Of a stretch of DNA of 64,000 nt, positions 4,124 through 19,854 are shown in pieces. Numbering within the stretch: the stretch's first letter is position 1; every line of letters starts with the position of its first letter. The notes beneath the pieces are model-generated. The model was not told the DNA's origin. It did no database searches and worked only from the letters and a program-made list of their open reading frames with translations. Where the stretch lies: contig NZ_CP013481.2 in assembly GCF_001465595.2 (NCBI RefSeq), positions 62,001 through 126,000 of the forward strand. The letters run 5' to 3'. This stretch comes from Pandoraea apista (lineage in GTDB: Bacteria; Pseudomonadota; Gammaproteobacteria; Burkholderiales; Burkholderiaceae). The position numbers and the translations under genes were made by a program.

Positions 4124-5122
4124 ATGCAACAACAGATGCAACAACGGGTGCTTTATTCCCTTCTGCTTCTCGCGCTGATCGTGGCGCCGTTCGCGGGCGC
4201 CTATCCGGTCTTCGTCATGAAGGTGCTGTGCTTCGCACTGTTCGCCTGCGCGTTCAATCTGCTGCTCGGTTTCACGGGGCTGCTGTCGTTCGGTCACGCC
4301 GCGTTTTTCGGCAGCGCGGGCTATATCACCGGCTACGCCATCCGCAATCTGGGCTTTACGCCAGAGATCGGCATTCTCGCGGGCGTGATCGCCGGGGCCG
4401 TGTTGGGGCTCGTCATCGGCCTGCTGGCGATTCGGCGTCAGGGCATCTACTTCGCAATGATTACGCTGGCATTGGCGCAGATGCTGTACTTCCTCTGTCT
4501 GCAAGCGCCGTTCACGGGCGGGGAAGATGGCCTGCAAGGCGTGCCGCGCGGCAGTCTTTTCGGGGTCTTGCCGCTGGATTCGGACCTCACGCTGTATTAC
4601 GTGGTGCTGGCCATTTGCGCGCTGGGCTTCCTGCTCATCATGCGTATCGTGCACTCGCCGTTCGGTCAGGTGCTCAAGGCGATCAAGGAGAACGAGCCGC
4701 GTGCGATTTCGCTCGGTTACGACGTCGATCGCTTCAAGCTGCTGGCGTTCGTGCTGTCGGCCACGCTGGCGGCATTGGCCGGATCGACCAAGACCGTGGT
4801 GCTGGGCTTCGAGACGCTCACCGACGTGCACTGGACAATGTCGGGCATGGTGATCCTGATGACGCTCGTGGGCGGTCTGGGGACGATGCTCGGGCCGGTC
4901 GTCGGCGCGGTGGTCATCATTGTGCTGGAGAACAAGCTCGGCGACATCGGCAACTGGCTGGCAACGGTCACGGGAGTGCCTTGGTTCCAGACGCTAGGCG
5001 AGTCGGTGACGATCGTGATCGGCGCCATCTTCATCATCTGTGTGCTGGCTTTCCGGCGCGGCCTGGTGGGTGAGTTGGTGGCGCGCAGCCGGTTCTTCCG
5101 GACCATGTCGCAAGCGTCGTGA
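4124..5122 (+). CDS. HAAT ABC transporter permease (LivM-like)
   Basis: This 332-aa LivM-type permease forms the heterodimeric channel with the preceding gene. The family motif NLLLGFTGLLSFGHAAFFG and the later KAIKENEPRAISLGYDV (cytoplasmic ATPase-contact loop) are clear. ATG 4124 is preceded by AAGGGGCAG. It is the last gene of the five-gene operon; a stable hairpin follows its stop within 6 bases. Confidence 0.9.
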   Translation: MQQQMQQRVLYSLLLLALIVAPFAGAYPVFVMKVLCFALFACAFNLLLGFTGLLSFGHAAFFGSAGYITGYAIRNLGFTPEIGILAGVIAGAVLGLVIGLLAIRRQGIYFAMITLALAQMLYFLCLQAPFTGGEDGLQGVPRGSLFGVLPLDSDLTLYYVVLAICALGFLLIMRIVHSPFGQVLKAIKENEPRAISLGYDVDRFKLLAFVLSATLAALAGSTKTVVLGFETLTDVHWTMSGMVILMTLVGGLGTMLGPVVGAVVIIVLENKLGDIGNWLATVTGVPWFQTLGESVTIVIGAIFIICVLAFRRGLVGELVARSRFFRTMSQAS

Positions 5123-5361: not shown

Positions 5362-5774
5362 TATTGCGCTTCGCCATCGCGCGAAGCCGCCTGCTGCCAA
5401 GGTCCGGCAGTCTGCACGACATCCCTTTGCCCAGTGTTTTCCGTGCGATTCTCGCCATGTTGCGAGAATCGCTTCGCTTAAATATGCGCAATGCGGCCTA
5501 AAAACGCTATGCTCGCCGTTTCATTCTGCGCATTCGATTGTTTCGTCCCATTCGGTCCATTCCGTCGATGTGCCAGTTTTATTCCGTCGGCCCGTTTTGT
5601 TCGGCCCTTTCGATGACCCGGTAGTCGCAGTCGTATGTCCAGCACGCTTTACATTTTGCAATGCGCGCCCTCGCGCTTTAAAGCCGGTGAGTTCGCCCGG
5701 TTGCCGTCACGGGTCCGACGGGGCTGTCTTGCGAAGACGGCCGGTTCGGCCCGGGCGGCATGTATGGGGAATGT
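5362..5774. other. Intergenic region before the TSUP permease
   Basis: No gene is supported. The only clear structure is an 11-bp perfect inverted repeat, GCGATTCTCGC (5445-5455) and GCGAGAATCGC (5462-5472), with a 6-base spacer. It could be an operator or a weak hairpin. TTTACA at 5648 resembles a -35 box but lacks a well-spaced -10. Confidence 0.4.
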
Positions 5775-6557
5775 ATGTTGACGGGCTGGGCGATAACCGA
5801 TTTGCTGATGCTCGCGGGCGGCGCGTTCCTCGCTGGTCTGGTCGACGCCGTGGTTGGCGGCGGCGGGTTGATCTCCGTGCCGACACTGTTTGCCGTTTTC
5901 CCGAACGCTGCGCCGCCGGTGCTGTTCGGCACCAACAAAATGGCCGGTATCTGGGGAACGGCGTCGGCCGCATTGCGCTACGCGCGCGGCGTCCAGCTTC
6001 GTTGGGCGATTCTGGTGCCGGCCACGATTGCGGCATTCGTGTTTTCGTTCTGCGGCGCTTATGCCGTCACGCATATTCCTGCCGACGTGCTGCGCAAGCT
6101 GTTGCCGTTCGTACTCGCCGGGGTCGCGGTGTACACATTGCGCAAAAAGGATTTCGGCACGGTTCACGCCCCTGTGAAGGGTGGGGCGGGGGTCACCCTC
6201 ATGGCGATCGCCGTGGGCGGCGCCATCGGCTTCTACGACGGGTTCTTCGGCCCGGGCACGGGCAGCTTCCTCGTGTTTTTGTTTGTGCGGTTGTTCGGGC
6301 AGGATTTCGTCAACGCGTCGGCATCGTCGAAGATCGTGAACGTGGCAACCAATCTGGCCGCACTGCTGCTGTTCGGCATGGGCGGGCACGTGTGGTGGCA
6401 GGTCGGCATTGGCATGGCGGTCATGAACGTGCTTGGCAGTCAGGTGGGCAGCCGCCTCGCGCTCAAACATGGCGTGGGCTTCGTGCGGCGCATGTTTCTG
6501 GGGGTGCTTGCCGTGCTTATCGTGAAGACGGGTTACGACGCGTTCTTGCGCGTCTGA
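5775..6557 (+). CDS. TSUP (TauE/SafE) family membrane permease
   Basis: This 260-aa integral membrane protein belongs to the sulfite/sulfonate exporter-like TSUP family. It has the two-repeat architecture: GLVDAVVGGGGLISVP near residues 21-36 and GFYDGFFGPGTGSF in the second half. I chose ATG 5775, preceded by GGGGA, rather than ATG 5760. The protein is likely to move small sulfur-containing or organic anions across the inner membrane; family members vary and the substrate is not deducible. It appears to be a single-gene unit between two ABC loci. Confidence 0.88.
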   Translation: MLTGWAITDLLMLAGGAFLAGLVDAVVGGGGLISVPTLFAVFPNAAPPVLFGTNKMAGIWGTASAALRYARGVQLRWAILVPATIAAFVFSFCGAYAVTHIPADVLRKLLPFVLAGVAVYTLRKKDFGTVHAPVKGGAGVTLMAIAVGGAIGFYDGFFGPGTGSFLVFLFVRLFGQDFVNASASSKIVNVATNLAALLLFGMGGHVWWQVGIGMAVMNVLGSQVGSRLALKHGVGFVRRMFLGVLAVLIVKTGYDAFLRV

Positions 6558-12835: not shown

Positions 12836-13007
12836 TTATTCACAGTTGCTTGTGGATAGTTGTGGATATCCAAAATCTATGGCGCACTGCCGCAATAAGG
12901 GGTTGCGCGATTTTTTGCAAAATCTCTCGAAATTTCTGCCTGAGGTTATCCACAGAAAAGCAAATTCCCGAATGCAGTTGATCGCCATGACGTGGGTGTG
13001 TGGATAA
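12836..13007. other. oriC: Putative chromosomal replication origin (DnaA-box cluster and AT-rich element)
   Basis: Five DnaA-type boxes fall in about 170 bp. TTATTCACA at 12836 (+) fits the TTATNCACA consensus. TGTGGATAG at 12851 (-) and TGTGGATAT at 12861 (-) each have one mismatch. TTATCCACA at 12946 (+) and TGTGGATAA at 12999 (-) are perfect. Between them lies an AT-rich segment (12908-12936), including the interrupted palindrome GATTTTTTGCAAAATC (12909-12924), a candidate unwinding element in a GC-rich genome. The region is non-coding and precedes parS sites, mnmG, rsmG, parA and parB. In E. coli and several other bacteria oriC lies beside mnmG (gidA). dnaA is not in the window. Confidence 0.75.
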
Positions 13008-13070: not shown

Positions 13071-13086
13071 GGTTTCACGTGGAACG
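13071..13086. other. parS: Degenerate parS site 1
   Basis: Core GTTTCACGTGGAAC; 3 mismatches to the 16-mer TGTTTCACGTGAAACA. It lies about 65 bp right of the last DnaA box. Confidence 0.5.
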
Positions 13087-13157
13087 TAGGTTTTTTTGGG
13101 GGGCGTTGGAACGCCACGTCCTTCGAATCAGGCGACGTGCTTTCATCCGTCCGGGCA

Positions 13158-13227
13158 GTGGGGGTTGGCGGTGCCCTGACTGCGCTCCAGCTAAAAGTCG
13201 CTCCGTCAGGGCACCACCAACCCCCAC
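13158..13227. repeat. Long inverted repeat, reverse-oriented copy of the array hairpin
   Basis: Two 23-base arms (13158-13180 and 13205-13227) match at 22 positions around a 24-base loop. The sequence GTGCCCTGACTGCGCTCC (13171-13188) is the exact reverse complement of part of the tandem units to the right (GGAGCGCAGTCAGGGCAC at 14200-14217). AAGTCGCTCCGTCAGGGC is the reverse complement of part of the last unit (around 14401-14418). This is therefore an inverted, more perfect copy of the hairpin embedded in each parS unit. Confidence 0.8.
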
Positions 13228-13229
13228 CC

Positions 13230-13503
13230 ATCGAATGCCCCAGTTTCCCGCCCAGGTTTGGCTCGCCCATCCCCAGAGAATCCTTCCACATTCATCTGTT
13301 ATGTCCGCGTCGGCAATGCACCGCCGCGGGGCATCGAGCGTTAGCGCTTGAGGGCAGGCTTATGGCGGGGGAGACAGGCTCAAGCAGAGAATGCCGCACC
13401 TCGTAGGCTAGCGATCAACGCCAAGGGATGCGGTGCAGTCTGGTGTTCCGCTAACGCTGCCTGTTCGGAATCATCTGGATCTGTTTGCCGCGCGCGTCGA
13501 ACC
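13230..13503. other. Non-coding spacer between origin and parS array
   Basis: No gene is supported. It contains a 10-bp inverted repeat, AGCGTTAGCG (13337-13346) and CGCTAACGCT (13449-13458), about 100 bp apart, and a second pair TGCACCGC/GCGGTGCA. The order of the arms rules out one nested hairpin. Role unknown. Confidence 0.4.
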
Positions 13504-13519
13504 TGTTTCGCGTGAAATG
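13504..13519. other. parS: Degenerate parS site 2
   Basis: TGTTTCGCGTGAAATG, 3 mismatches to the 16-mer. It opens a shortened repeat unit of 145 bp. Confidence 0.45.
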
Positions 13520-13648
13520 CACGCCAGTACGCATTCGTGATCTTCGCCGCCCGGAAGCGTGGGAGGGCGTGGCGGGAATGTCTAGGGGTTGGTTGTGGAG
13601 ATGTCCGCTCCGTCGAGGTCAGACGAGGCATCGATCGTCACTCGCCAG

Positions 13649-13664
13649 CGTTTCACTTGAAACA
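13649..13664. other. parS: parS site 3
   Basis: CGTTTCACTTGAAACA: two mismatches, one (G to T) in the central CACGTG. Confidence 0.65.
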
Positions 13665-13874
13665 CGTCCGTCGATCTTGCGAAGGCCATCTCGGGCATAA
13701 ACTTGGCAGAGATTGCCGATGCATCGACGTAACGACCTCCAGGTGGAGCGCAGTCAGGGCGCTGATGATCTTTGCTGCCCGGAATGACGAGAGGGCGAGG
13801 GGGTGTCACGGGGTTTGGTTGGGGGGGATGATTGATCCGTCGTGGCGACCCGAAGTTCGATACTCCGCGACAGG

Positions 13875-13890
13875 CGTTTCACGTGAAACA
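13875..13890. other. parS: parS site 4
   Basis: CGTTTCACGTGAAACA: one end mismatch; the 14-bp palindromic core is perfect. Confidence 0.93.
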
Positions 13891-14103
13891 CGCCGTCGAT
13901 CTTGCGAAGGTTATTCCGGACATAAACTTGGCGAAGATTGCCGGTGCATTGACGGAACGACTTCCAGGTAGGAGCGCAGTCAGGGCACTGATGATCTTCG
14001 CTGCCCGGGATGACGAGAGGGTGAGGGAATGTCTCGGGGCGTGGTTGGTTGGGGAGATGATTGCCCCGTCGTGGCGAATCGAAGCCCGATACTCCGCCGC
14101 CGG

Positions 14104-14119
14104 CGTTTCACGTGAAACA
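14104..14119. other. parS: parS site 5
   Basis: CGTTTCACGTGAAACA: perfect 14-bp core, identical to sites 4 and 6. Confidence 0.93.
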
Positions 14120-14329
14120 CGCCCGTCGATCTTGCGAAGGTTATTCCGGACATAAACTTGGCGAAGATTGCCGGTGCATTGACGGAACGACTTCCAGGTG
14201 GGAGCGCAGTCAGGGCACTGATGATCTTCGCCGCCCGGAATGACGAGAGGGCGAGGGAATGTCTCGGGGCGTGTTGGGGAAGATGATTGATCCGCCGTGG
14301 CGACCCGAAGCTCGATACTCCACCGCCAG

Positions 14330-14345
14330 CGTTTCACGTGAAACA
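14330..14345. other. parS: parS site 6
   Basis: CGTTTCACGTGAAACA: perfect 14-bp core. Confidence 0.93.
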
Positions 14346-14559
14346 CGCCTGTCGATCTTGCGAGGGTTGTCTCAGGTATTAACTTGGCGAAGATTGTCGG
14401 TGCCCTGACGGAGCGACTTCCAAGTGGAGCACAATCAGGGCGCAGGTGATCTTTGCTGCCCGAAAGGAGGCGAGAGCGACGGGGATATGTGGGGAAATGA
14501 TTGTGGGCGGTGGGGGTGACCCGTTGTGGTGAGTCGAAACATCGCTCGTCCTCGTCAAA

Positions 14560-14575
14560 CGTTTCACGTGGAACA
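14560..14575. other. parS: parS site 7
   Basis: CGTTTCACGTGGAACA: two mismatches. It closes the periodic array; site 8 follows 43 bp later. Confidence 0.8.
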
Positions 14576-14602
14576 GTCTCCAAAACCGTAGTTTTCCACT
14601 CA

Positions 14603-14618
14603 TGTTCCACGTGAAACA
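14603..14618. other. parS: parS site 8, beside the mnmG promoter
   Basis: TGTTCCACGTGAAACA: one mismatch. It ends 34 bp before the TATAAT of the mnmG promoter, so ParB bound here would sit over or beside the -35 region. Confidence 0.88.
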
Positions 14619-14626
14619 CCAGGCGG

Positions 14627-14658
14627 TTACAAATGATGCACCGCAATGCCGCTATAAT
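14627..14658 (+). promoter_or_regulatory. Candidate mnmG promoter
   Basis: A perfect -10 box TATAAT (14653-14658) lies 46 bp before the mnmG start. The best -35 candidates (TTACAA at 14627, or CAAATG at 14630 with a 17-base spacer) are weak, so it may need help or be moderate in strength. It is directly adjacent to parS site 8. Confidence 0.6.
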
Positions 14659-14704
14659 TCCGCATTACCGAATCCAGAGAGTTTGCCCGCGCGGCAAAAT
14701 TGCG

Positions 14705-16678
14705 ATGCTTTATCCAACCGAGTTCGACGTGATCGTGGTGGGTGGCGGCCATGCCGGCACCGAGGCTGCGCTCGCCTCGGCCCGCATGGGCTGTAAAACA
14801 CTTCTGCTCACCCACAACATCGAGACGCTCGGCCAGATGAGCTGCAATCCCTCCATCGGTGGGATCGGCAAAGGTCACCTCGTCAAAGAAGTCGATGCGC
14901 TGGGCGGTGCCATGGCAGCGGCAACCGACGAGGGGGGAATTCAGTTCCGTATTCTGAATTCGTCCAAGGGCCCGGCTGTCCGTGCCACCCGGGCACAGGC
15001 CGATCGCCTTCTGTACAAGCAAGCCATTCGCCATCGCCTCGAGAATCAACCCAACCTTTGGTTGTTCCAGCAGGCCGTTGAGGACCTCATCGTTGAAGGC
15101 GAACGCGTTGTCGGTGCCATCACGCAGGTGGGACTGCGCTTCCGTGCCCACGCCGTTGTTCTGACCGCAGGTACCTTCCTCGACGGTAAGATTCACGTCG
15201 GACTGAACAACTATGTGGGCGGTCGTGCCGGAGATCCGGCTGCCGTTAGTTTGTCTGCTCGCCTGAAAGAGTTGAAGTTGCCGCAAGGCCGGTTGAAGAC
15301 AGGTACGCCACCGCGTATCGACGGTCGCTCCATTGACTTCTCTGTCCTCGAAGAACAGCCCGGCGATCTCGATCCGGTACCCGTTTTTTCGTTCCTCGGT
15401 CGCCCCGAACAGCATCCGCGCCAGGTGCCATGCTGGGTCACGCACACCAACGAGCGTACGCACGACATCATCCGTGGCGGGCTCGACCGATCACCGATGT
15501 ACACCGGCGTCATCGAAGGGGTGGGGCCGCGTTACTGCCCGTCCATCGAGGATAAGATCCATCGCTTCGCTGATAAGACGTCGCACCAGATCTACCTTGA
15601 GCCGGAAGGTCTCACGACCAACGAGTTTTACCCGAACGGCATCTCCACCAGCTTGCCCTTCGACGTACAGCTGGCACTTGTTCGCTCGATGAAAGGCATG
15701 GAGAACGCCTACATCCTGCGTCCGGGTTACGCCATCGAATACGATTACTTCGATCCGCGGGGGCTGCGCAGCTCACTTGAAACCCGCGTGATCTCCGGGC
15801 TTTTCTTCGCGGGGCAGATCAACGGTACGACCGGATACGAAGAAGCCGCCGCACAGGGGCTGCTCGCCGGTATCAATGCGGCACTGCAAGTGCAGGGGCG
15901 CGAGGCCTGGTGCCCGCGCCGCGATCAGGCATACCTCGGCGTGCTGGTCGACGACCTGATTACACGCGGCGTATCCGAACCGTATCGCATGTTCACCAGC
16001 CGGGCCGAGTATCGCCTGTCGCTGCGCGAAGATAATGCCGACATGCGCCTGACGGAAATCGGTCGCGAACTCGGGGTGGTCGACGATATCCGTTGGGAAG
16101 CCTTCTGCCGAAAGCGTGACGCTGTTTCACGTGAAACAGAACGTCTCAAATCGACGTGGGTGAACCCGAAGACCTTCCCCGCCGAGGATGCCGTGCCATT
16201 GCTCGGCAAAGCCATCGATCACGAGTATTCGCTCGCTGATCTGTTGCGACGTCCGGAAGTCGGGTACGACGCGCTGATGGCGGTGCAGGGTGGTCGCCTC
16301 GCGCCGGAAGGGCCTTTGGCCGACGATGCGCTGCAAGCCAGCCAGATTCGCGAGCAGATCGAGATTGCGGTCAAGTATCAAGGCTATATCGACCGTCAGG
16401 CCGACGAAATCGGGCGCAAGGAAGCCAACGAGAACACTGTGCTGCCCGCCAGCATCGACTACAACGATGTCAGGGGCTTGTCGATCGAAGTGCGTCAGAA
16501 ACTCAACGCGCAGCGGCCCGAGACCCTTGGGCAGGCATCGCGCATCTCCGGCGTTACGCCCGCTGCGATCTCGCTGCTGATGATCCATCTCAAGAAGGGA
16601 CTCGGACGCCGTCGCGCGTCGGAGGACACGACTGCCGACGCCGCTGCCACCGATGCCGGTGGGCAGCACGCTGCCTGA
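14705..16678 (+). CDS. mnmG: tRNA U34 carboxymethylaminomethyl synthesis enzyme MnmG (GidA)
   Basis: This 657-aa FAD-dependent enzyme, with MnmE, installs the cmnm5 group on wobble uridine of certain tRNAs in the cytoplasm. The FAD-binding motif [15 protein letters not shown] is at residues 8-22, followed by [23 protein letters not shown]. The C-terminal MnmE/tRNA-binding region is present, plus a short Ala-rich tail that makes it slightly longer than the usual roughly 630. I chose ATG 14705 (MLYPTEFDV) over upstream in-frame codons. A perfect parS 16-mer is embedded at 16123-16138 and translates as VSRET. rsmG follows 12 bases after the stop, the classic gidA-gidB pair next to an origin. Confidence 0.97.
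16123..16138. other. parS: Perfect parS site inside mnmG
   Basis: TGTTTCACGTGAAACA matches the universal ParB site at all 16 positions. It lies in the mnmG coding sequence 1.5 kb right of the array, so it is constrained both as DNA and as protein. Confidence 0.95.
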
Positions 16679-17982: not shown

Positions 17983-18102
17983 CAGCAGGCGCAATAACTG
18001 AGCTTTGCTCAGAAAATCGAATTTGCGGGATGTCCCGGTAAGCAGGCAGCAGACCCGCCGTGGCGGGTGGTACGGCGAGTGCGCATTACCGGACTTATCC
18101 CG

Positions 18103-18129
18103 GCATCATCTGCATCAATTGCATCAACA
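18103..18129 (+). repeat. Three 9-bp tandem repeats upstream of parA
   Basis: GCATCATCT, GCATCAATT and GCATCAACA follow head to tail and end 12 bases before the parA ribosome site (GGAGGA at 18141). They could be a regulator-binding array or leader element; function unknown. Confidence 0.6.
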
Positions 18130-18156
18130 CGGCAGCATTCGGAGGACTACATCGGC

Positions 18157-18927
18157 ATGGCGAAAATTTTCTGCGTGGCCAATCAGAAGGGCGGCGTTGG
18201 CAAGACGACCACCACGGTGAACCTCGCTGCCGGATTGGCGTCGCACGGGCAGCGGGTCTTGTTGGTCGACCTCGATCCGCAGGGCAATGCGACGATGGGC
18301 AGCGGTATCGACAAGGCAGCACTCGAGTCGAGCGTGTACGAAGTGCTGGTCGATGGTGCCGATGTGACAACGAGCTGTCAGCGCTCGGAGTCGGGCAGTT
18401 ACGATGTGCTGCCCGCGAATCGCGAGCTGGCCGGGGCGGATGTGGAACTCGTCTCGCTCGAGAATCGCGACACGCGGCTCAAGCAAGCGCTTGCCAAGGT
18501 CGACGACGCTTACGATTTCGTCCTGATCGATTGCCCGCCGACGCTTTCGCTGCTGACCCTGAACGGGTTGTGCGCGGCGCACGGTGTGATCATTCCGATG
18601 CAGTGCGAGTATTTCGCACTCGAAGGTCTGTCGGATCTCGTCAACACGATCAAGCAGGTGCACGCGAATCTGAACCGTGACCTGAAGGTGATCGGGCTGC
18701 TGCGCGTGATGTTCGATCCGCGTATCACGCTGCAACAACAAGTCTCGGAGCAGCTCAAGGAGCACTTCGGCGACAAGGTTTTCAATGCGATCATTCCGCG
18801 CAATGTGCGACTTGCCGAAGCGCCGAGCTATGGCATGCCGGGCGTGGTCTTCGATCCCGCGTCGCGCGGAGCGAAGGCGTATCTGCAATTCGGCGCGGAA
18901 ATGATCGCGCGTATTCAAACTATGTAA
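18157..18927 (+). CDS. parA: Chromosome partitioning ATPase ParA (Soj)
   Basis: This 256-aa MinD/ParA-family ATPase drives separation of replicated origins by binding the nucleoid non-specifically and releasing when stimulated by ParB. The deviant Walker A KGGVGKTTT with signature Lys (K11) and catalytic Lys (K16) is intact, as is DFVLIDCPPTLSLLTLN. I chose ATG 18157, preceded by GGAGGA, over upstream in-frame codons. It lacks the N-terminal helix-turn-helix of plasmid ParA (class Ia), so it is the short chromosomal type. parB starts 27 bases downstream, and the parS array lies 3.5-5 kb upstream. Confidence 0.97.
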   Translation: MAKIFCVANQKGGVGKTTTTVNLAAGLASHGQRVLLVDLDPQGNATMGSGIDKAALESSVYEVLVDGADVTTSCQRSESGSYDVLPANRELAGADVELVSLENRDTRLKQALAKVDDAYDFVLIDCPPTLSLLTLNGLCAAHGVIIPMQCEYFALEGLSDLVNTIKQVHANLNRDLKVIGLLRVMFDPRITLQQQVSEQLKEHFGDKVFNAIIPRNVRLAEAPSYGMPGVVFDPASRGAKAYLQFGAEMIARIQTM

Positions 18928-18954: not shown

Positions 18955-19854
18955 ATGGCGACCAAGACCAACGCACTGAAAAAAAAGGGCCTGGGCCGCG
19001 GCCTCGAAGCGCTGCTCGGCGCGCACGCCGATAACCACAACGGCGCGACCGAAGCGAGTGCCGACGGCGCGCCGTCGGTGATGTCGCTCGAGCGCCTTCA
19101 GGCCGGTAAGTATCAACCGCGCACACGCATGGATGAGGGCGCTTTGCAGGAACTCGCCGCGAGCATTCGCGCGCAGGGCCTGATGCAGCCGATTCTGGTG
19201 CGTCGTGTCGATGGTGAGAAGTACGAAATTATTGCGGGTGAACGGCGCTTTCGCGCCGCGCGCATCGCCGGGCTGTCCGAAGTGCCGGTGCTCGTGCGCG
19301 ATGTCCCTGATGAAGCCGCCGCCGCTATGGCGCTTATCGAGAACATTCAGCGCGAAGATCTGAATCCGCTCGAAGAAGCGCAGGGCATTCAACGCCTGCT
19401 CGGCGAATTCAATTACACGCATGAGCAGGCCGCCGAGTCGCTTGGCCGGTCGCGCAGTGCGGTGTCGAATTTATTGCGTCTGCTCAACCTCGCGCAGCCG
19501 GTGCAGACCATGTTGCTGGCCGGCGATCTCGACATGGGGCACGCTCGCGCGCTGCTCGCGGTAGACGCTGCCACGCAGATTACGCTCGCCAATCAGGTGG
19601 TGAACAAGCGTCTGTCGGTGCGCGACACTGAACGGATCGTCAATGCTTCGCTGAAGCCCCAGGGTGATGGCATTCGTCGCCGCTCGGCGGAAGAGGGCGG
19701 TCGCGATGTGACGCGACTTGAAGAGGAGTTGTCGGATCTGCTCGCCTCGAACGTCAAGATCAAGGTCGGCCGAAAGGGCGCCGGACAACTCACGATCGAA
19801 TTCGGCAGCCTCGATGCGCTCGACGGGATTCTCGCGCGCATTCGTGCCGAGTAA
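18955..19854 (+). CDS. parB: Chromosome partitioning protein ParB (Spo0J)
   Basis: This 299-aa CTP-dependent clamp loads at parS and slides on DNA. The N-terminal ParA-stimulating patch KKKGLGRGLEALLG (about 9-22) carries the Arg/Lys typical of ParA activation. The CTP-binding motif GERRFRAARIAG is near 98-109 and ENIQREDLNPLEEAQG near 126-141. A helix-turn-helix (THEQAAESLGRSRSAVSNLLRLL) reads parS, and a C-terminal dimerisation domain ends the protein. Its target 16-mer is found nine times to the left (four strong, five weaker), including one perfect copy in mnmG. Confidence 0.97.
   Translation: MATKTNALKKKGLGRGLEALLGAHADNHNGATEASADGAPSVMSLERLQAGKYQPRTRMDEGALQELAASIRAQGLMQPILVRRVDGEKYEIIAGERRFRAARIAGLSEVPVLVRDVPDEAAAAMALIENIQREDLNPLEEAQGIQRLLGEFNYTHEQAAESLGRSRSAVSNLLRLLNLAQPVQTMLLAGDLDMGHARALLAVDAATQITLANQVVNKRLSVRDTERIVNASLKPQGDGIRRRSAEEGGRDVTRLEEELSDLLASNVKIKVGRKGAGQLTIEFGSLDALDGILARIRAE

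Follow-up and report, generated by a model that had tools for sequence, protein, structure and literature searches.

Tandem parS-bearing units upstream of mnmG in Pandoraea form a satellite-like array that is probably the chromosomal centromere

Organization of the mnmG–parAB locus

The window, i.e., the whole 64-kb stretch of DNA analysed here, corresponds to C1:62001-126000 of the Pandoraea apista genome G000 (5.57 Mb, two contigs). A head-to-tail array of four direct units of 226, 229, 226 and 230 bp is located 5′ of mnmG, and the gene order is branched-chain amino-acid transporter operon, array, mnmG–rsmG–(lipocalin)–parA–parB, with parAB starting 3.5 kb downstream of the array. A parS-like site, defined as a 16-mer with at most three mismatches to the 16-bp palindrome TGTTTCACGTGAAACA, stands at the start of each of the four units. 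The features of the locus, in window positions, are as follows.

12836-13007, no strand assigned: DnaA-box cluster of five 9-mers (two perfect), putative boxes by sequence, with order and spacing kept in array-bearing Pandoraea
13071-13086, + strand: outlying parS-like site with 3/16 mismatches, from the 16-mer search
13149-13228, − strand: solitary inverted copy of the unit hairpin element, strongly paired, from sequence and folding
13504-13649, + strand: degenerate partial unit with a decayed parS at 13504-13519, matching the 3′ part of the unit, without hairpin
13650-13875, + strand: unit 1, 226 bp, parS at 13649-13664 (2/16 mismatches)
13702-13784, + strand: hairpin element of unit 1
13876-14104, + strand: unit 2, 229 bp, parS at 13875-13890
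13927-14008, + strand: hairpin element of unit 2
14105-14330, + strand: unit 3, 226 bp, parS at 14104-14119
14157-14240, + strand: hairpin element of unit 3
14331-14560, + strand: unit 4, 230 bp, parS at 14330-14345; it has diverged more than units 1-3
14383-14465, + strand: hairpin element of unit 4
14560-14575, + strand: parS closing the array, 2/16 mismatches
14603-14618, + strand: parS adjoining mnmG
14633-16678, + strand: mnmG (gidA), with a mechanically assigned ORF start
16123-16138, + strand: exact parS within mnmG; the exact core is present in mnmG of 65/65 outgroup loci
18067-18927, + strand: parA
18955-19854, + strand: parB, with GERRFR at residue 95

The window contains nine parS-like 16-mers (starting at 13071, 13504, 13649, 13875, 14104, 14330, 14560, 14603 and 16123), compared with 0.19 expected by chance, and none of 100 shuffled windows reached nine. 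From 13504 onwards the spacings are 145, 226, 229, 226, 230 and 43 bp, and Tandem Repeats Finder reported a repeat of period 226 at 13643-14462 (3.6 copies, 87% matches). Both agree with the earlier note, which had described five parS sites spaced 226, 229, 226 and 230 bp apart through repetition of the whole unit. Its other structural claims were borne out as well: the two central units, called nearly identical, share 96% identity across 156 bp, and the 145-bp sequence that precedes the array is a partial unit. At its other end the array is closed by the fifth parS (14560), and the site at 14603, 43 bp beyond it, is probably the ancestral upstream site, judged by its position. Three of the array sites have a perfect 14-bp parS core. 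Across the whole G000 genome, eight of the nine cores with at most one mismatch fall inside C1:75072-78137, and the ninth, at 3.79 Mb, is at about chance level (estimated at ~1 per genome). No other tandem array with a period of at least 60 bp was found in 437,967 scanned bases of G000. The array is located on the 5,493,967-bp contig C1 and had no match among 72,556 plasmid records, and import from a plasmid was rejected on this basis.

ParB has the ParB_N, HTH_ParB and ParB_C domains and is of the chromosomal type; Spo0J, Noc and ParB are among its structurally solved relatives, and its GERRFR motif is presumably a CTP-binding box. For mnmG, translation may really begin at the ATG at 14705, since the alignments with many relatives start only near residue 20-25 (and some at residues 3-10). 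Beyond what the earlier note described, the locus has a parS inside mnmG (16123), a hairpin in each unit and a DnaA-box cluster upstream.

DnaA boxes and the position of the origin

A cluster of DnaA-box-like sequences (four to six boxes, two of them perfect and 52-54 bp apart) lies upstream of the array in all 21 array-bearing genomes covered by the survey, which skipped loci with less than 2 kb of upstream sequence. It was found in none of four array-less Pandoraea (P. terrae, G023, G025, G029) and in none of five outgroups, three of which had no box and two a single one. The cluster may perhaps act in DnaA titration or in regulation, or may be a second origin.

The dnaA gene, with a four-box cluster of its own, is located at the end of C1, ~76 kb from the array if the contig is circular. 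The cumulative GC-skew minimum lies 11 kb (G000) or 17.6 kb (G012) from the dnaA end and ~65-67 kb from the array. Judged by these positions, the array lies near the origin without adjoining it; of the earlier placement "beside oriC", the proximity stands and the immediate adjacency is rejected. Four more DnaA-box-like sites were observed in L133 (G000 C1:20023-20253), ~9 kb from the GC-skew minimum, and represent a candidate origin.

Distribution of the array and its single origin in Pandoraea

Relatives were collected by MnmG similarity, and the best 80 of 588 loci comprised 15 Pandoraea loci and 65 from other Burkholderiaceae. MnmG identity to G000 is 95-97% in 12 of the 15 Pandoraea loci and 88-94% in the other three. 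No parS array was found at any of the 65 outgroup loci; within 700 bp upstream, each of them has a single core with no more than one mismatch, 58-500 bp from the MnmG match; seven have one extra 2-mismatch parS upstream, and some have weak sites several kb off. The order livF–mnmG–rsmG–parA–parB is common to the window and the three outgroup loci examined. The livF–mnmG synteny is conserved, and the spacer between the two genes measures ~150-370 bp in these three outgroups, 1.3-1.4 kb in five array-less Pandoraea loci (two of which apparently represent a single genome) and 2.0-2.8 kb in the three loci with an array for which it was measured, among them the window.

A tree was built from mnmG DNA with 36 rows, four of them outgroups, and the array state was scored as at least four upstream parS sites. 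The state changes once, inside Pandoraea. At least four sites (counts of 4-12, which are lower bounds for rows whose contig ends inside the array) are present in 28 of the 32 Pandoraea rows; the anhela and G024 rows are identical, and the independent count is therefore one lower. The exceptions are G023, G025 and G029, with one site each, and P. terrae, with three close sites. G003 (a 1.2-Mb genome with two sites) was left off the tree, as its mnmG anchor was not found. The tree sister of G000, G026, shares the site layout of the window (142, 227, 213, 180, 220, 43), but its units are decayed. The array is thus not an accident of one assembly. In the same intergenic region of P. terrae (L019), 38-bp tandem repeats were observed at 4757-4849 and 5724-5841, with no parS array.

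A hairpin element within the unit

The hairpin element occurs in all four units of the window and forms the second conserved block in the cross-species alignment of units. It is present in the array region of 17 of the 19 array-bearing genomes scanned. Of their 80 units of 180-300 bp, 64 contain it, and these come from 15 of the 19. Among forward copies, 51 of 59 start 50-60 bp past the parS core and the other eight at 41-78 bp; five in-unit copies are inverted, four of which belong to the 189-bp units of G013, at 71 bp. No hairpin was found inside a 180-300 bp unit in G016 and G008, and the clade of G007, G010, G011 and G027 lacks the element.

An alignment was assembled from 17 hand-picked copies, in most cases one per species and with preference for well-preserved copies, a choice that favours pairing. 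In it, 15 of 24 stem pairs have changes on both sides. Cells changed on both sides number 42, whereas shuffles give 12.5 and slid controls no more than 14; the share of cells that pair is 96.3%, as against 87.0% for shuffles and 47.3% or less for slid controls. In these 17 copies the element thus behaves as a conserved stem-loop, which shows that pairing was kept across lineages. In the window, the best 90-nt stem of unit 3 reaches -41.7 kcal/mol against a shuffled mean of -33.9 (sd 3.6), and 13150-13235, a long near-perfect palindrome in reverse orientation to the unit hairpins, folds as RNA at -55.5 kcal/mol. Inverted copies of the hairpin were also observed upstream of the array in many Pandoraea.

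Within 437,967 bp of G000 the five hairpin matches are all at the array locus, and within 360,000 bp of G012 the ten matches all fall on the piece that carries mnmG. From other Pandoraea genomes, 16 loci away from mnmG were chosen, and all 16 carry a dispersed copy, none of which has a parS with at most two mismatches beside it. Since such parS-less dispersed copies exist, the unit probably acquired its hairpin from a dispersed palindrome. The covariation does not show a function in segregation, because different dispersed versions may have been copied in different lineages. The element is thus a passenger, i.e., a dispersed palindromic repeat caught beside parS, or else a second functional part, and the covariation is compatible with both. 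Assignment to a known RNA family was rejected (three weak matches, all far below the gathering score).

Evolution of the repeat units

The period of regular arrays differs between species: 225 bp in G012, 228 in G017, 231 in G002, 233 in G019 and 234 in G028, and further 189 bp in G013, 266 in G020 and 279 in G030. A nearest-unit test was applied to 12 species chosen for regular units of 215-240 bp, with units outside this range and other species left out. In 41 of 44 cases the nearest unit came from the same genome, and the three exceptions all pair the sister species G012 and G021. Homogenisation is not general, since eight unit sets (G009, G010, G014, G016, G022, G026, G027 and G001b, the second contig of G001) have a mean within-genome unit identity of 0.42-0.56 at spacings within 150-320 bp, which is close to or under the baseline from shuffles, 0.51 (sd 0.04).

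Across 23 unit sets, the core difference is 0-0.107 and the spacer difference 0.064-0.386; in the older-looking arrays of G009, G014, G016, G022, G026 and G027 the cores are still intact (0-0.036) although the spacers have drifted (0.33-0.39), an apparent conservation that is inflated by the delimitation of units at recognisable parS. When unit boundaries were instead located by spacer similarity in 14 genomes, 91 of 93 had a parS core with at most two mismatches and 67 of 93 an exact one, although some bias remains because the queries were cut between recognised parS. The two boundaries without a good parS are in G002 (seven mismatches) and G013 (four).

The constancy of the period was assessed by comparing the squared length difference between units with the summed squared indels. 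The ratio of observed to expected length variance ranges from 0.02 to 3.3 across 16 unit sets, and the low values (0.02-0.5) include young regular arrays. In diverged arrays it is 0.27 (G001b), 0.36 (G009), 0.69 (G027), 0.88 (G022), 1.62 (G026), 1.93 (G020), 2.09 (G014) and 2.69 (G030), values that carry the alignment noise of such divergence. Selection on the period is not supported, as diverged arrays have no consistent excess of constancy, within what alignment noise allows the test to resolve. In several Pandoraea species the parS spacing is irregular, including the clade of G007, G010, G011 and G027, in which several irregularly spaced parS occur without the hairpin. We take regular phasing as a by-product of copying: selection for it is not borne out, the spacing in diverged arrays varying about as indels predict.

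Taken together, these results support an array that is satellite-like in form and in mode of evolution. The description of an amplified tandem centromere array of satellite-like form extends to most of the genus examined, with varying copy number, lineage-specific periods and homogenised units in the regular arrays. The comparison across relatives suggested in the earlier note thus revealed variation in both copy number (4-12 upstream sites) and period (189-279 bp).

Multiple parS sites in other genomes

A pattern of three parS sites at spacings of 204-234 bp was searched in 399 genomes of the order and 398 of the phylum, each sample including two Pandoraea. It matched 2/399 order genomes (G000 and G121) and 1/398 phylum genomes (G000). 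G121 is a Candidatus Ichthyocystis, with a MetK identical to that of a Candidatus Ichthyocystis, and carries 13 parS at 205-226 bp, all inside a 12.4-copy 220-bp repeat in the metK–dapF interval (L157:14565-17287). In its congener G076, four parS follow one another at exactly 389 bp within a repeat of 3.4 copies in the same interval (L169:12562-13870). Compared by blastn, the units of G121 and G076 share only parS with the next bases (17 bp) and two 10-bp chance matches. The Ichthyocystis arrays are an independent case, unrelated to the array of Pandoraea. That parS arrays in general carry a hairpin was rejected: a single unit from each Ichthyocystis array gave -17.3 and -15.5 kcal/mol, compared with shuffled means of -18.2 and -14.3. 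As neither of these units has a stem beyond its shuffles, parS arrays do not need a hairpin.

At least four exact cores are present in 18 of the 399 order genomes, including G000, G076, G121 and G271, in searches that by design miss arrays of variant sites. The spacings in G271 are irregular (301, 121 and 88 bp), and in the other 14 genomes the sites are scattered or on different contigs. In the phylum sample (398), 14 of the genomes with at least four cores were followed and have, among the matches listed, scattered sites or irregular clusters (G539, G743, G769); the sample also includes eleven further genomes with four sites (G466, G586, G590, G625, G640, G702, G704, G714, G716, G763 and G766), as well as G440 and G571. 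One parS pair, 233 bp apart, was found in G686 of the phylum sample.

Comparison with known systems

The locus has the characteristics of a chromosomal ParABS centromere, i.e., a 16-bp palindromic site, parA and parB nearby and an origin-proximal position. Like the sopC type, it consists of head-to-tail repeats with putative ParB sites; unlike it, these are 226-230 bp units on a 5.49-Mb contig and not 43-bp repeats on an F-type plasmid. Eukaryotic satellite centromeres consist of tandem monomers that undergo concerted evolution, with species-specific period and copy number. The Pandoraea array shares these traits, which is a likeness of evolution and not kinship; unlike them, it spans kilobases and not megabases, has a sequence-specific loader and involves no histone variant.

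The sopC centromere of the F plasmid (parS-F) is described as twelve 43-bp tandem repeats with ten 16-bp ParB motifs (PMC6238139). Both systems are tandem direct repeats with putative or known ParB sites, but sopC is plasmid-borne with a short unit and another site sequence, whereas the Pandoraea units measure 189-279 bp, are chromosomal, contain a hairpin and differ in copy number and period between sister species. In Myxococcus xanthus, 22 parS are reported in ~3 kb, 4 kb upstream of parA (PMC3899335), and 7 of 24 parS on the minus strand (PMC3778016); this cluster is chromosomal like the Pandoraea array, and the passages describing it, on which the comparison is based, do not mention whole-unit repeats. 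For chromosome 1 of Burkholderia cenocepacia only two parS are given, with the same site sequence as in Pandoraea (PMC7022226), in agreement with the outgroup loci studied here. REPs are described as 20-40 bp long (PMC3733652); the Pandoraea hairpin resembles REP-type repeats in being palindromic and having dispersed copies, but it is ~70-80 bp long and has no copy outside the locus in 438 kb of G000.

Plasmids are thus already known to carry tandem arrays of ParB sites and M. xanthus to have densely clustered parS, and the earlier suggestion that no bacterial equivalent had been described is too strong (PMC6238139, PMC3899335). Among the literature matches listed, no title or abstract opening reported whole-unit tandem parS repeats on a chromosome, which does not establish their absence from print, and none of those pairing "Pandoraea" with "parS" concerned parS arrays, judged by title and abstract start. 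As far as these matches show, the new elements are a chromosomal whole-unit satellite with concerted evolution, the composite parS–hairpin monomer and the recurrence in another family of the order.

Interpretation of the array

We consider it probable that the array is the chromosome's centromere, a clustered ParB loading platform produced by tandem amplification of a composite unit (parS, ~52 bp, hairpin element). Binding and loading of ParB at the array are predicted. ParB-CTP dimers would enter at every parS, clamp shut and slide away from it; with several loading ports in 1 kb, loading would be faster and the partition complex for ParA (and SMC) denser. ParB is reported to load at parS and to redistribute over ~15 kb (PMC9242446). 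Unequal recombination between near-identical units would expand, contract and homogenise the array, selection would discard arrays that lose parS, and the ~230-bp period would reflect how long the amplified unit is, with no tuning of the distance.

Additional copies may contribute little, since a single parS near oriC is described as sufficient in P. aeruginosa (PMC4368675). This observation also favours a neutral origin, in which slippage or unequal crossing-over expands a recombination-prone palindrome next to parS, and the parS sites come along without benefit; the hairpin is a plausible trigger, unit length varies by species and a constraint on the period was not shown. We nevertheless regard neutral duplication as unlikely: in the most diverged arrays the spacers differ by up to 39% while the cores differ by 0-4%, 438 kb of G000 contain no second array with a period of at least 60 bp, the array is present in 28 of the 32 Pandoraea rows, and a second lineage, Ichthyocystis, also has arrays at parS.

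It is rather more doubtful that the array serves the DnaA-box cluster or the expression of mnmG instead of adding segregation strength, with ParB spread over 2 kb repressing or insulating mnmG, or coupling ParA/ParB to a DnaA-binding site. The match between cluster and array (21/21 array-bearing genomes covered, against 0/4 other Pandoraea and 0/5 outgroups) speaks for such a role, but the association is weak because it amounts to a single event if both arose on one branch; furthermore, array length varies while the cluster is unchanged, and GC skew places the origin near dnaA. The earlier note had also named an assembly artefact, to which several draft contigs ending inside arrays (L011, L014, L016, L034) might point; this is hardly credible, as the array lies within a 5,493,967-bp contig and multi-parS clusters occur in the one-to-three-contig assemblies of G005, G012, G013, G018, G020, G026 and G027.

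Beyond the centromere reading of the locus, a wider proposal is possible, though as a whole we hold it only tentatively: bacterial chromosomes could have true satellite centromeres, whose Pandoraea monomer would join two functional parts, parS and, mostly 50-60 bp further on, a hairpin able to form a cruciform, would have arisen with a new DnaA-box element and would undergo concerted turnover, with an independent case in Ichthyocystis built from other monomers at another locus. The hairpin would then perhaps act as a supercoil sink, a recombination hotspot or a barrier that keeps ParB clamps local. If this proposal is true, bacterial centromere satellites with a known 16-bp site and a known loader would make the preference for tandem repeats testable in a simple cell, where copy number, spacing and homogenisation can be varied one at a time, and they would show how ParB loading scales with closely spaced parS.

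The genus itself supplies natural variants, ranging from 1 to 12 upstream sites at one locus, and Ichthyocystis offers a second lineage for comparison. In L011 and L110 (G001, P. aquatica), whose contigs break inside the array, alternating spacings of ~96-101 and 274-294 bp were observed, like a two-site higher-order repeat. G018 (L120) carries two parS triplets (225, 223 and 223, 225 bp) ~1.08 kb apart, resembling a duplicated block of units.
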